Shown here: piece by piece, positions 33,274 to 38,922 of the stretch
Layout: every line of letters begins with the position of its first letter
Numbering within the stretch: position 1 is the first letter of the stretch
Source of the DNA: Bradyrhizobium lablabi
GTDB taxonomy: Bacteria; Pseudomonadota; Alphaproteobacteria; Rhizobiales; Xanthobacteraceae
Direction: 5' to 3'
NCBI RefSeq assembly: GCF_018131005.1
Contig: NZ_JAFCJK010000001.1
Location: forward strand, 620,001-684,000
DNA length: 64,000 bases
The notes under the pieces: generated by a model
The model's input: only the letters and a program-made list of their open reading frames with translations
Told to the model about the DNA's origin: nothing
Databases searched by the model: none
Made by a program: the position numbers and the translations under genes

Positions 33274-34070
33274 AGTCCGCGTCGCTTCCTTCTTCCGTTC
33301 CACCACAGCGTCAGATTCCAGCAGATGCAGGTGGCGAGCGCCAGGCTCAGGCCGATCGCCGAGCCGAATTGCAGCACCGCGATGTGCATGACTGCGATCG
33401 CAAGCCCAAATCCCATCAGGCCCCAGGCACCGTTGGCGATGACGGCCGCGGTCGGCGGCCCGCCAATGCGCGGATGCAGAATGAGCATCATCGAGGTGAA
33501 CACGATCGGAAACAGCGCCATCACGCCACTGACGCGCGGGCCGACCCAGCCCGACGTCGTCACCACGACTGCAACCAGCGTCGCGACGAGCGAAGCGCGC
33601 AGCGGGATGTCGTACCAGCGGCGGGTAATCAGCGGCATCTTTGCGACGTGCCGATACGGCCTGAGCAGCGGGATGCAGATCGCGAAGGTGATGGCGTTGA
33701 CGATCAACCCCGCGATGAGCGTCCACTGGAACTGGCGCATGATGGAGGCGATCACGAGCCATGCCGCAATCGCCGATCCGGCACTTACCAATCCGCTGAA
33801 TCGTTGTGCCAGCACGGCATAGGTGAGGCCCATATAAATCGTCGCAGCGTTGACCGGCAGGCTCGCCAGCGCGCCCTCCGCGATGAAGGCGGCGTCATGA
33901 TCGAGCGCCAAGAATGTGTAGGATGGCCCCGCCGAGATCGGCAGCGTGGCGACCAGCGCGCCGATCACCGGGCCTGAACGCTCCGTAATGATCGATGCAC
34001 TCACCACGAACGCCGCCGTGATGGCCATGCGTAGCACGAGCGTGAGAAGAAAGATGAGTTCGGGGGACAT
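33264..34070 (-). CDS. Hypothetical polytopic membrane protein
   Basis: A 268 aa protein starting MSPELIFLLTLVLRM (AAGGCAACG upstream); a longer frame to 34289 is probably noncoding. Eight or nine hydrophobic segments cover nearly the whole length, with short charged loops (RPYRHVAKMP, HPRIGGPP) and a basic C-terminus. I do not recognise a family. The last three codons and stop are contributed by a repeat. It is codirectional with the LysR gene upstream but 323 bases away. Confidence 0.7.
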   Translation of the reverse strand: MSPELIFLLTLVLRMAITAAFVVSASIITERSGPVIGALVATLPISAGPSYTFLALDHDAAFIAEGALASLPVNAATIYMGLTYAVLAQRFSGLVSAGSAIAAWLVIASIMRQFQWTLIAGLIVNAITFAICIPLLRPYRHVAKMPLITRRWYDIPLRASLVATLVAVVVTTSGWVGPRVSGVMALFPIVFTSMMLILHPRIGGPPTAAVIANGAWGLMGFGLAIAVMHIAVLQFGSAIGLSLALATCICWNLTLWWNGRRKRRGLRA

Positions 34071-34393
34071 CGTTGCCTTGTAACTTTCCCCTGAAGGGGG
34101 ACATTTTGCAATAGGCGATATCGCTTCGATGCTCGTAAGCCGCTGAAACTGCAAAACGATTATCTGTGACCTTCTCAGGTCGGTTGTGATAGTACGCGGC
34201 CGCCTCCGGAGTTCTAGGATCTCTCGTCGGCGAGACGGGACTTCCGATTCTCGCGCTTGATTTCGCTGGCGTCGCACGGTGGTGGACACCCCTCACAGCA
34301 GAGAGTGCGTTCGAGCGACAGCCGAATGCGGGTTGTCGCAATCAACAAAGCGCCGACGGCCGCGTTTGCGAATCGCTTGCGGCAAGTCAATCG
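34071..34393. other. 323-base gap with one half of a flanking direct repeat
   Basis: No credible gene. It holds CCCCTGAAGGGGG (a short stem, 34087-34099), a palindrome TCTCGTCGGCGAGA at 34222-34235 resembling the LysR boxes at 35308, and at 34275-34307 a 33-base sequence that recurs imperfectly at 38883-38915. Confidence 0.5.
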
Positions 34394-35287
34394 TCACGCC
34401 TGATGACTTACGTTCCCATAACCCCGGCAAACCTCGATGAAGGCCTGTACGACCGGTGAGTTGCGCGCTGAGCGATAGGCCAGGGCGAGTTCGACCTTGC
34501 GGTCGTAGTTCGAAATCTCGCTGTAACGGACATTGGGCATGGCGAGCGCGCGCAACGATTCGGGCACGAGCGCGATCCCGCAACCTGCGCCGACCAGAGT
34601 GATGGCCGACAGGAAGTCGCGCACCTGGACGACCCGCTCGGGTGTGGGACCGCCGGCTGCAACGAAGTCGGCGGCATGCTCGGCGAAGCCGCCGGACTTC
34701 GGCACCACAAAGGTCTCGTCGGCGAGCGCGCGGATCTCGGGGTCGGCCGACCGCGGATGCCCGACCGGCAGCGCCAACAGCAGCTTTTCGGTGCGCAGCA
34801 CCTCGACCACGACGCCCTCGGGATAATTCGGACGCGGCCTGATGAAGCCCACGTCCAGCTTGCCCTCCGCGATGGCCGCGAGCTGCTGAAACGTTTCCAT
34901 CTCAGAGATCCGCAGGACGATGCCAGGGCGCTCCTCGCGGAAGGTCAACATCGCGAGCGAGAGCAGGCCGGAGAAAGCGACCGAGGCGACGTAGCCGATC
35001 TCGACGTGGCCGAGCATGCCGCGCCCGGCGAGGCGGCCGACGGATTCTGCGATATCAATTTGCCGCAGCGCATTTCGCGCCTCGGTCAGGAAGAGCTGAC
35101 CGGCGTCGGTCAGAGTCACTGAGGACCGCTTGCTTCGGCCCAGCAGCCTTACGCCTAACTGGGCTTCAAGTTGCTTTACTTGAGTGCTGAGGGCCGACTG
35201 GGCGACGTGCAGGTGGTCTGCCGCCTTCGTGAAATGCAGATATTCCGCGACAGCCACGAAATAGCGAAGTTGCCGGACATCGAGCAT
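34394..35287 (-). CDS. LysR-type transcriptional regulator of the aae-like efflux cassette
   Basis: A 297 aa regulator. The helix-turn-helix spans MLDVRQLRYFVAVAEYLHFT through AADHLHVAQSALSTQVKQLE; an effector-binding domain of the LysR type covers about 90-290. It is divergently placed from the FUSC-DUF1656-HlyD cassette across a 209-base region holding LysR-type palindromes. This is the arrangement of AaeR and AaeXAB, suggesting activation by an aromatic carboxylic acid. Confidence 0.88.
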   Translation of the reverse strand: MLDVRQLRYFVAVAEYLHFTKAADHLHVAQSALSTQVKQLEAQLGVRLLGRSKRSSVTLTDAGQLFLTEARNALRQIDIAESVGRLAGRGMLGHVEIGYVASVAFSGLLSLAMLTFREERPGIVLRISEMETFQQLAAIAEGKLDVGFIRPRPNYPEGVVVEVLRTEKLLLALPVGHPRSADPEIRALADETFVVPKSGGFAEHAADFVAAGGPTPERVVQVRDFLSAITLVGAGCGIALVPESLRALAMPNVRYSEISNYDRKVELALAYRSARNSPVVQAFIEVCRGYGNVSHQA

Positions 35288-35307
35288 TCCAAGGATCTCC
35301 GGATTTT

Positions 35308-35352
35308 ATCTCGGCTCGAGATTAAACGATATCGTCTCGCTATTGGACGAGA
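35308..35352. promoter_or_regulatory. LysR-type operator pair between regulator and efflux cassette
   Basis: ATCTCGGCTCGAGAT at 35308-35322 is a perfect palindrome with the T-N11-A form of LysR recognition sites. A second, looser copy, TCTCG-N8-CGAGA, lies at 35335-35352 next to a palindrome ACGATATCGT (35326-35335). The layout, one strong and one weak site just upstream of the lysR start, matches recognition and activation sites of an autoregulated LysR system. Confidence 0.55.
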
Positions 35353-35496
35353 TCAATGGGCGAGCGCACCTTTCATCCGTGAGGGAACGCGCCTGGACGA
35401 AGTCAGCGCTTTGTCGAGCAATCGGCGCGGAAGAGATGGCGCCGTCCAGTTGAGGTTCCGGCTCCGCTAGATGGCGCGTCCGATGGAAAACACTCA

Positions 35497-37561
35497 ATGA
35501 CTACCGATGAGCCCAGCCGAATGTCCTTGCCCAGGTTCCCGGAGCGACAGGTCCGTGTGCTCGATTTGGAACGTCTGAACAGGATGGCCGCAGGCACGGT
35601 TCCCGCGCTTCTCTTCGGCTTGCGGCTTTGGGCTTCTGTTTGCCTCGCGCTCTATATCGCTTTCTGGCTCGAACTCGACAGCCCGTTTTGGGCCGGCACC
35701 TCGGCGGCGATCGTCTGTCAGCCGCAGCTCGGCGCAGCACTGCGCAAGGGGTGGTTCCGCATGATCGGCACGCTGGTCGGCGCTATCGCGATCGTTGTGC
35801 TGACCGCATGCTTTCCGCAGGATCGTGCATCGTTTCTCCTTGGGCTCGCCCTGTGGGGAGCGGCATGTGCATTCGTCGCGACGTTAGTCCGCAACTTTGC
35901 AGGCTATGGCGCAGCGCTGGCCGGCTATACGGCGGCAATTATTGCCAGCGATCAGCTCGGCGCAATCGGCGGCGTACACGGTGACGTCTTCATGCTGGCT
36001 GTCACCCGTGCAAGCGAGACTTCCATTGGCATCGTCTGCGCCGGCGTCGTTCTCGCTGGAACCGATCTCGGCAGCGCCCGCAGGCGGCTAGCCACGCTCT
36101 TTGCAGACCTGGAGGCACGAATCGCAGCGGGACTTACCGGCACATTCGCGCCGACCGGGCCTGAACCATCTACCACGCGATCGATGCGGCGTGCACTCGT
36201 GCAGAGAGCTATTGCCCTCGACCCGATGATCGACGAAACGCTCGGGGAATCGGCTCAAATCCGTTATCATTCGTCGGTCTTGGAGAGGGCGGTGGAAGGC
36301 TTGTTCGCCGCCCTGGCCGGCTGGCGTACGGCGGCAAATCACCTTGTCGAGCTGCCCAGCGCGGAGTCCCGGCAAGACGCGGCAATCATCCTGCAAATCC
36401 TGCCGCTCGAGCTGCGATCCACAAACGCCGAGCCGTCGCGGTGGATCGCTGATCCGACCGGCCTGGGCAGGCTCTGTGAGACGACCGCGCGCCGGCTAAT
36501 CGAGCTGCCCTCTCGCACCCCATCGCTCCGCCTGCTCGCCGACCAGACCGCCGAAGCGCTGGTCGGCATGTCGCTTGCGGCGAAGGGCCTGGCTTTGCTT
36601 GTCGCCGCCCCCCGCTCGACCTGTCCCGCGCCGCCACAATGTCATCCGCCTGCACGTCGCGGACTGGCTGCCAGCTCTGGTCAATGCAGCGCGCGCATTC
36701 GTTACGGTCTGCTCCGTCGCGTTGTTTTGGATCGTCACCGCCTGGCCGGGCGGCGCTGAGGCCATCACCTTCGCAGCCATCTCCGTCATTCTGTTCGCGC
36801 CGCGAGCGGATCAGGCTCACGCGGGGGCCATGGGCTTCATGGTGGGTACCGGAATCGCAGCTGTTGCCGCGTCGATCATCAGGTTCGCGGTGCTGCCGCA
36901 CCTGGAGACCTTTGCCGCCTTCAGCCTCGCGATCGGCCTTTGGCTGGTCCCCGCCGGTGCCGCGGCGGGGAATTGGAGAAGCGGCGCGCTCACCTATATG
37001 GCGGCGTATTTTGTACCGTTGCTCGCGCCCGAGAACCAGATGAGCTACGACGCAGCGCAATTCTACAACGCGGCGCTCGCGATCCTCGCCGGCATCGGCG
37101 CCGCGGCACTGTCGTTTCGCCTGCTGCCACCACTGTCGCCGGAATTCTGCGCCCGACGGTTGCTGGCCTTGACCTTGCGCGACCTGCGCCGTCTCGCGAT
37201 GGGGCGGACGTTCGGCGACTGGATGGGCCACATCCATGGCCGGCTCTCGGCCATGCCGCGAGGAGCGATCCCTCTACAGCGCGCTCAACTGTTGGCGTCG
37301 CTCTCAGTGGGATCCGAGATAGTCGGGCTGCGCCCTCTGGCTCGACGGCTCGGCGTCGGCACCGATTTCGAACACGCTCTCGCCGCTCTGGCGGAAGGCG
37401 AGAGTTCGATCGCCATTGAGCACCTCACTCGCCTCGACGCGGCGCTCGCCGGTAACAGATTTGCCCAACGCGAGGTGGTGCAGGCGCGCGCTCGCATTCT
37501 CACCCTATCGGAGGTGTTGCTTGAGCACGCCGATTACTTCGATTCAGGAGCACTAACATGA
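35497..37561 (+). pseudogene. aaeB: FUSC-family aromatic-acid exporter gene (AaeB-like) split by a frameshift
   Basis: Two frames together encode one protein. The first (from 35497) gives a FUSC domain with LRLWASVCLALYIAFWLELD and FWAGTSAAIVCQPQLGAAL; it is correct up to about GLALLVAAP, then runs out of frame to 36759. The second frame, read through about 36610, continues ARPVPRR then WLPALVNAARAFVTVCSVAL, a second set of membrane helices, and ends at 37561 overlapping the next start. Removing one base from the run of six C at 36608-36613 restores a 687 aa protein of normal family length. It may be a recent mutation, a sequencing error in the run, or a recoding site. The product would export aromatic acids with the two downstream proteins. 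Confidence 0.8.
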
Positions 37562-37776
37562 GGTTTGTCGAGGTCAACCTGTTCGGTGTGTATGTTGCAC
37601 CCATTTCGCTCATGATGGTCGGCGCCTGGCGCGTCACGATTGCGCTGCGCCGGGTCCTCAGCCGCTTTGGTTTGCTCCGATACGTCTGGCATCCAGCCCT
37701 GTTCGTGTTTGCCACGTACATCATCGTTCTTTCGTCCTGGGTTCTGATCGTGGCCCACTGGAGTTCGCCATTATGA
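37558..37776 (+). CDS. aaeX: DUF1656 small membrane protein (AaeX-like)
   Basis: A 72 aa protein with two membrane segments (about 7-27 and 43-67), the DUF1656 pattern (EVNLFGVYVAPISLMMVGAW). Its start ATGA overlaps the FUSC gene stop and its stop overlaps the next start, so the three are translationally coupled. DUF1656 proteins are constant companions of FUSC pumps; their role is not settled. Confidence 0.88.
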   Translation: MRFVEVNLFGVYVAPISLMMVGAWRVTIALRRVLSRFGLLRYVWHPALFVFATYIIVLSSWVLIVAHWSSPL

Positions 37777-38750
37777 CCGTTACTGAAATCATATCGAAGC
37801 AAGGCAAGAGGCCCGATCATCGTGAGCAGAGCCCGTTCCTTGCGCCGGAAACGGATGAGTTCGCCAGACGTCGTATCAAGGTAATTCCGTTCCTGATCAC
37901 CCTGGCAACCGTCGCGCTTGCCGGGCTGCTCGGCTGGGCGATGTGGCGCGTCTATATGGAGGCACCGTGGACGCGCGACGCTACCGTGCGCGCCTATGTC
38001 GTCACGATCGCGCCCGAGGTGTCGGGCCGGATTGTGGAACTGCCGGTCGCCGACAATCAATTCGTCCACAAGGGCGACCTGCTCATGGTCGTTGATCCCA
38101 CGAACTTCGCGATTGCCGCCCGGCTCGCAGATGCCGCCGTCGACCAGGCGCAGGCCCTCGCGCAGAATGCGCGGGCCCAGTCGGAGCGCCGGCAGAAGCT
38201 GACTGATCTGGCGATCTCGCAGGAAGAGCAGCAGACGTTCTCCAGCAACTCGCTGAGCGCCGATGCGGCCTATCAGCAGGCGCTTGCGAAACGCGACCAG
38301 GCGCATGTCGACCTCGAGCGCACCCGCATCGTCTCTCCGGTCAACGGGTATGTGACGAACTTGCAGGTGCAACTTGGCGATTTCGTCACTGTCGGGCAGA
38401 GGAGCATCTCGCTCGTCAACACCGATTCCTTTTGGGTCGACGCATATTTCGAGGAGACCAATCTGCGAGGGATTCGCGAAGGAGACCTCGCTTCGATCAA
38501 ATTGATGGGCCACGGCGAAGTCGTTCGTGGGCATGTCGAGAGCGTCGCCCGCGGCATCGATATACCAAACACTCAGCCGGACACGTCCGGTCTCGCCTCG
38601 GTAAATCCGATCTTCACCTGGGTCCGCCTCGCGCAGCGCATTCCGGTGCGCATCCATCTCGATGACGTGCCAAGCGACGTGCGGCTGGTGGCCGGATTGA
38701 CCGCCACGGTACAGATTGAGCCAGGATCAGCGAAGCGGTCGCATCATTGA
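37773..38750 (+). CDS. aaeA: HlyD-family membrane fusion protein (AaeA-like)
   Basis: A 325 aa periplasmic adaptor for the FUSC pump. One anchor helix (about 40-60) precedes the lipoyl half APEVSGRIVELPVADNQFV, a short coiled coil (about 115-175) and the second lipoyl half SPVNGYVTNLQVQLGDFV. The shorter hairpin distinguishes it from the EmrA-like protein at 18.8 kb and matches AaeA. The start overlaps the DUF1656 stop by four bases (ATGA). Confidence 0.87.
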   Translation: MTVTEIISKQGKRPDHREQSPFLAPETDEFARRRIKVIPFLITLATVALAGLLGWAMWRVYMEAPWTRDATVRAYVVTIAPEVSGRIVELPVADNQFVHKGDLLMVVDPTNFAIAARLADAAVDQAQALAQNARAQSERRQKLTDLAISQEEQQTFSSNSLSADAAYQQALAKRDQAHVDLERTRIVSPVNGYVTNLQVQLGDFVTVGQRSISLVNTDSFWVDAYFEETNLRGIREGDLASIKLMGHGEVVRGHVESVARGIDIPNTQPDTSGLASVNPIFTWVRLAQRIPVRIHLDDVPSDVRLVAGLTATVQIEPGSAKRSHH

Positions 38751-38882
38751 TCGCTGCTCATGTACGGAACCCGCTTTAGGCCGCGAGGCGTCGGCATCGA
38801 AGGGGCATCCGTGCCTTGCCACTCGCGATAGCGGCGCCACTCGGCGCGCCGCCGCTGCCGCGTCTTGGCGGCTGACGGCGAG

Positions 38883-38915
38883 CACGATGGTTGACGACCC
38901 CTCCAGCAGAGAGTG
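38883..38915. repeat. Right copy of a 33-base direct repeat flanking the aae-like region
   Basis: CACGATGGTTGACGACCCCT continuing CCAGCAGAGAGTG; it agrees with 34275-34307 at 26 of 33 positions by my hand alignment, with the last 11 bases identical. The two copies bracket the lysR-aaeBXA segment. They may be ends of an ancient insertion or just another dispersed repeat. Confidence 0.4.
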
Positions 38916-38922
38916 AAGATCA

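Follow-up and report, generated by a model that had tools for sequence, protein, structure and literature searches.

A frame break near a C6 run divides the FUSC pump gene of a putative fusCDE-like efflux islet in Bradyrhizobium lablabi

RESULTS

The FUSC pump gene lies in two reading frames

In the 64,000-nt stretch of Bradyrhizobium lablabi DNA analysed here (hereafter the window; contig NZ_JAFCJK010000001.1, positions 620,001 to 684,000), the gene of a FUSC-family efflux pump is divided between two reading frames, which we read with moderate confidence as a recent null allele of an acquired, partly redundant fusCDE-like pump, probably arisen by a single-nucleotide change at or next to a run of six C. 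The features concerned are the following, in window coordinates.

34100–38895 (approximate, borders inexact), no strand: islet of ~4.8 kb, absent from the same site in relatives
34394–35287, minus strand: divergent LysR-type regulator, intact (PF00126 and PF03466)
35304–35326, no strand: inverted repeat of the T-N11-A form in the lysR/pump intergenic region, candidate operator
35497–36759, plus strand: FUSC pump gene, first part, ORF of 420 aa (PF04632, E 3.4e-64, profile positions 2–292)
36575–37561, plus strand: FUSC pump, second-part open frame, ORF of 328 aa (PF04632, E 6.8e-44, profile positions 340–635)
36608–36613, plus strand: C6 run at the frame break (codon-HMM switch zone 36610–36624)
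37558–37776, plus strand: DUF1656 small membrane protein, AaeX/FusD-like (PF07869, E 4.3e-19)
37773–38750, plus strand: HlyD-type periplasmic adaptor, AaeA/FusE-like (PF13437, E 1.1e-16)

Both pump pieces belong to the FUSC family, scoring 218.1 and 151 bits with PF04632, a profile of 660 positions and a curated cut-off of 30.9 bits; the uninterrupted ORF of ~690 aa that the subfamily has is replaced here by two frames. The frame-1 product (35497–36759) follows the family for ~372 residues and then runs on through 48 foreign residues, and the second frame becomes family-like from ~36614. The length of the two halves, their open frames and their likeness to the family show that chance does not account for the break. 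A sequence-only reading of this DNA had proposed a frame break in the C6 run that splits the FUSC pump; the break as such is borne out by the ORFs, the two PF04632 halves and the codon HMM, and the arithmetic of that reading, namely that dropping one C gives a protein of 687 aa, is correct.

The position of the frame change was approached in two ways. A seven-state codon-usage HMM, blind to homology and trained on the source contig, assigned frame 1 up to 36609, a neutral stretch at 36610–36624 and frame 2 from 36625, with mean codon log-odds in the expected frames of +0.141 before and +0.179 after the shift versus −0.154 (frame-1 tail) and −0.237 (frame 2 just upstream) in the wrong frames. 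By protein alignment with 20 full-length relatives, the frame changes in the short linker between 'LVAA' and 'RLHVADWLPAL'. CCCCCC occupies exactly 36608–36613, where frame 1 reads GCC CCC CGC, and the HMM and the alignment are both consistent with a lesion in this run while neither pins it there; the run is a natural place for the lesion, and another small indel in the linker would look alike.

As a motif the run is unremarkable, and the idea of a surprising C6 was discarded: the window holds four on both strands, against 32 expected in dinucleotide shuffles. This rarity of C6/G6 suggests an avoidance of long C/G runs in the genome.

Related pump genes keep one frame

Among the 21 subfamily pump genes seen whole, 20 are single ORFs, with open frames of 669–749 aa, and the exception, in genome G031, has a break of its own. 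The 20 aligned relatives, i.e. those with the ORF whole in the locus, include the paralog on contig C36 of the source genome itself (L004) and three near-identical genes (L041–L043). Left out were the distant matches L018 and L022 and the pieces cut by locus ends, namely L002 and L003 (the C36 paralog), L044 (the gene of L049), L047 (the gene of L038) and L008, a part of the split G031 gene that is whole as L106 and was counted as the 21st. A break conserved in relatives was rejected, all 20 aligned genes having one frame. Orthologues with the same six C and a functional shorter protein, which the sequence-only reading had set as the observation to speak against it, were not encountered: none of the 20 unbroken relatives is short, and the gene at L052, with six C in its linker in frame, is full-length. 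Searches of the genus (265 genomes), of 397 genomes sampled from the order and 385 from the class, and of plasmids and contigs yielded no closer orthologues, the best whole-cassette matches reaching 68–69% DNA identity, so that no close comparison of run length is possible.

Slippage and a pump in two pieces

Ribosomes slipping by +1 at CCC-C, where frame 1 reads CCC CGC, could yield some full-length pump. The site is the CCC-CG context on which tRNA-Pro is slip-prone in E. coli, with +1 errors of up to ~1% at the second codon in the excerpted text of PMC4519876, so trace leak-through is conceivable. According to the same excerpts, however, the UGG tRNA on CCC-CG goes more to +2 than to +1, and an internal, unstimulated event should occur at well below 1%. 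The site is moreover unconserved (each of the 20 aligned relatives is in one frame) and is preceded by no Shine-Dalgarno-like stimulator (−1.5 kcal/mol); the downstream RNA folds worse than shuffles (z = +1.42, 188 of 200 shuffles folding at least as well), and there is no stop at the shift site, frame 1 continuing for 48 codons. Programmed ribosomal frameshifting is marked by a conserved slip site with stimulators, neither of which is found here, and we consider +1 slippage very unlikely. Of the three causes offered in the sequence-only reading, slippage on the run is accordingly disfavoured, its site being unconserved and without a stimulator, and recent loss and an error in the data both stay in play. 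Even less probable is that the C run serves as a leaky +1 slip site (CCC-CGC) setting a low dose of pump, with DUF1656 and adaptor at normal levels; were this true, the pump would be costly at full dose, the cassette would be tuned by a savior frameshift and not dead, and the independent break in the sister cassette of G031 would be a second case of pump down and adaptor on.

The homopolymer at the break could also speak for transcriptional slippage there or for a reversible phase variation of the run. Six C is short, though, since selection against slippery A/T runs becomes evident at ~nine, in a large share of genomes (PMC1088944, as excerpted), and the long homopolymer of a transcriptional slippage site, ~nine A/T, is represented here by a C6 only. 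In 864 kb of the source contig, moreover, 62 further C or G runs have a length of exactly six, and none of the 20 relatives is off-frame at the linker, where L052 carries its C6 in frame. The titles and abstract openings among the matches listed from the phase-variation literature name no FUSC pump. We find this explanation scarcely credible.

The last of these alternatives is a true two-piece pump, the halves of which would be made separately and then assemble. FusC-type proteins of ~350 aa are reported from Burkholderia in the excerpts of PMC7682875, and frame-2 TTG codons at 36575 and 36599 precede the second half, the Shine-Dalgarno energy of the latter (−5.5 kcal/mol) being near that of the adaptor (−5.9) and better than that of the pump start (−3.3). 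Yet neither TTG beats the background, the 10th percentile of random sites lying at −6.3; the starts that do beat it (36839 and 36842, −8.6) would remove the first membrane region of the second half, and among the 21 subfamily genes seen whole that of G031 alone is also two-framed, with the break ~20 residues earlier. The second part is thus without a convincing independent start, though the Shine-Dalgarno energies leave room for one, and the two-piece pump deserves hardly any credence.

A lone clear break in 864 kb: data fault or real change

Across 864 kb of the source contig, the codon HMM reported 152 adjacent frame changes on the same strand, six of which leave the first frame open for >40 nt past the switch; five of the six have a new-frame ATG within ~31 nt of the switch, as judged by the codon model alone, and only the pump has none. 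The pump break is the only clear break that the codon model shows in the 864 kb, a model that old, decayed pseudogenes would escape. In a sensitivity control, simulated single-base indels shifted the model's frame in 200 of 200 genes, which is a best case because the indels were placed in the middle third of genes of ≥900 nt and were judged by a criterion simpler than the 864-kb filter. Beside the pump's run, 28 C6/G6 runs (17 C, 11 G) are set within a single coding segment, ≥60 nt from its ends, and all keep their frame, while 37 runs of six or more are not so placed, i.e. the pump's plus 36 uninformative ones between segments or near their ends. A general sequencing fault at C runs was thereby rejected: with 28 such runs in frame, the assembly is not generally bad at them.

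An isolated assembly or base-calling error, with the pump gene intact in the living strain, is a realistic if rather unlikely explanation. The gene and the operon are otherwise normal, and one break per 864 kb is a rate that assembly error alone could reach; in the GeneTack survey of Antonov et al., moreover, homology-validated singleton frameshifts are expected to be sequencing errors and not genuine indels (PMC3711429, as excerpted). The frame kept at the 28 runs weighs on the other side, as do the lack of a second clear break in 864 kb under a model that caught every simulated indel, the quality of the assembly (rated 100% complete, in 39 contigs) and the position of the break in an accessory islet, where real loss would be expected. 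In the excerpts of a study of young Salmonella pseudogenes (PMC2916853), 346 of 378 carry a single lesion, which favours a real loss, whereas it counts against one that only 17% of the 346 arose from an insertion.

State of the pump gene and its neighbours

When conserved columns were compared with 18 relatives (L041 and L043 omitted), no decay was seen in the pump gene beyond the frame break. Of the invariant and near-invariant columns, the first part retains 67/69 and 93/96, respectively, and the second part 28/29 and 51/54; for the second part, relatives scored against one another range from 49/60 to 54/54 near-invariant columns; GC at third positions is 0.722 in the first part and 0.759 in the second. 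The pump gene thus presents a single inactivating lesion alongside intact homologues, as a young pseudogene does, and a lone lesion without further decay is also the look of an intact gene carrying a sequence error.

The start of the DUF1656 gene overlaps the pump stop by ATGA, and so does the adaptor start the DUF1656 gene. Both frames are open, in keeping with the earlier statement that the aaeX- and aaeA-like genes downstream are intact, and a translational coupling to the pump gene is plausible because of the ATGA overlaps. The Shine-Dalgarno energies do not settle the coupling (DUF1656 −6.6, adaptor −5.9 and pump −3.3 kcal/mol, with the 10th percentile of random sites at −6.3). Upstream, the regulator is intact, and the inverted repeat at 35304–35326 holds a LysR-box-like dyad, ATCTCG-GCT-CGAGAT, the arms of which are 90% complementary with the inner six bases perfect. 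The sequence-only claim of an intact lysR operator stands as to the LysR gene and the presence of the dyad, which itself is a candidate operator by its form; a scan of the whole window for the T-N11-A pattern was too unspecific for use.

The divergent LysR gene, the order FUSC-DUF1656-HlyD and the ATGA overlap of pump and DUF1656 are those of a fusCDE-type operon, and the cassette fits a fusCDE-like efflux islet with a putative exporter. The label 'aromatic-acid efflux' given earlier did not hold up: all NCBIfam equivalog cut-offs for AaeB, AaeA and AaeX are missed widely, with 63.5 and 39.2 bits for the separately scored pump pieces against 870 (AaeB), 30.3 against 82 (AaeX) and 251.6 against 400 (AaeA), and the gene order is that of fusCDE. 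As no subunit reaches the AaeXAB level, the label is only an unproven guess about the putative substrate.

An accessory islet, probably acquired

In relatives, the gene matching ~33285–34071 directly adjoins the OsmC gene (38923 in the window), with gaps of 8–207 nt (median 166) at the site, where the window has 4,851 nt counted from 34071. Of 24 genomes of the same genus that were searched, 23 could be assessed (all but G016), and none of these 23 has the cassette at the site; the junctions could be aligned at nine of 11 flank loci, the flanks of L112 and L113 being too short. Matches to the pump-to-adaptor DNA at E ≤ 1e-100 were found in 10 of the 264 other genomes of the genus, at 66–73% identity, and in two of 396 other sampled genomes of the order, and the cassette including lysR had none at this threshold in 384 other sampled genomes of the class. 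For the lysR gene with the intergenic DNA, the other 264 genomes of the genus gave nothing at E ≤ 1e-30; at the protein level, the start of a LysR beside a FUSC cassette in G065 (L040) is 69% identical over 67 residues. Given that the site is empty in all 23 relatives and that cassette matches are rare, the cassette is an accessory islet, probably acquired.

The empty site in L115, L116, L117, L120 and L121 carries inverted intergenic repeats of the CCCTCC/GGAGGG type, and the islet (window ~34100 and 38890–38922) may adjoin a possible palindromic element of this type.

Other FUSC cassettes in the source genome and the genus

The source genome holds a related, unbroken cassette on C36, where the pump is one frame of 689 aa and DUF1656 and adaptor are each matched in one stretch. 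It also holds a remnant on C35 (G000:C35:2772-3657, L102), in which a deletion has fused a frame-broken FUSC start to the last part of a HlyD-type adaptor gene, and a weak, partial FUSC match of 50.1 bits within a 927 aa frame at C1:797400.

In 117 sampled genomes of the genus, FUSC genes in two frames were found in at least three other genomes, G171 (L104), G267 (L105) and G031 (L106), with the breaks at other mid-gene places than the window's. The second FUSC stretch of G267 contains one in-frame TGA. The G031 gene is of the same subfamily as the window's pump; its adaptor frame is open, and its DUF1656 region gave both a match and a coding score. Here too, either real loss or error could be the cause; the assemblies of G267 and G031 consist of one contig each, that of G171 of ~1000. 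Four further loci (L107–L110) gave short or partial FUSC matches. The order pump-DUF1656-adaptor was found at 19 of the 23 loci compared (17 distinct cassettes). The three near-identical cassettes L041–L043, from other genomes of the genus, have pump and DUF1656 with no adaptor match beside them; G152, one of the genomes concerned, has an adaptor-like match ~30 kb away.

DISCUSSION

The best reading of the divided pump gene is a recent null allele, followed by an assembly error; both are ordinary, neither points to a new mechanism, and a null allele and one wrong base in the assembly give the same picture. For the null allele, the course of events may be reconstructed as follows. The islet would have been acquired and inserted where related species have an empty site, and replication slippage on the C run would then have changed the frame by a single nucleotide in the linker between the pump halves. 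Beyond residue 372, ribosomes in frame 1 would incorporate 48 foreign residues before terminating at 36757–36759, by which the second membrane half, and so the pump, would be lost. Synthesis of DUF1656 and adaptor may continue, as their Shine-Dalgarno energies allow, with some polarity from ~0.8 kb of untranslated message. The strain would presumably bear the loss, the cassette being accessory and a related one being present. The two-framed FUSC genes of G171, G267 and G031 provide a precedent for this reading.

The finding matters mainly for annotation, in which one frameshifted gene, and not two genes, should be entered. As an example it is a clean one: the efflux islet is accessory, and its pump seems to be on the way out while the genome retains a paralog. 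Should the break be real, the strain is predicted to depend on the C36 cassette for the export of the pump's substrates; if it is an error, it amounts to a single wrong call in the assembly.

Among known systems, E. coli aaeXAB, which effluxes p-hydroxybenzoic acid, draws on the same three families (FUSC, DUF1656/AaeX and HlyD/AaeA). Its genes stand in the order X-A-B, whereas the order here is B-X-A, and the three NCBIfam equivalog cut-offs are missed. The other FUSC cassettes, in the genus and beyond, share the order pump-DUF1656-adaptor, with 66–73% DNA identity within the genus; they differ in that their pump is in one piece except in G031, that L041–L043 lack an adaptor match and that L102 is a remnant. 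Closest in layout is Burkholderia fusR-bucl8-fusCDE, described for fusaric-acid efflux in the excerpts of PMC7682875, which has the same order of divergent LysR, FUSC pump, small DUF protein and periplasmic adaptor, and in which, as here, the ATG of the small DUF gene overlaps the TGA of the pump; in contrast to that operon, the 209-nt lysR-pump gap here leaves no room for an outer-membrane factor gene, and the pump is frame-broken. As for the break itself, it resembles both the GeneTack singletons (PMC3711429) and the young Salmonella pseudogenes (PMC2916853), as far as the excerpts of the two papers describe them, in being one lesion, unconserved in relatives, in a gene otherwise normal, and it differs from neither in kind.
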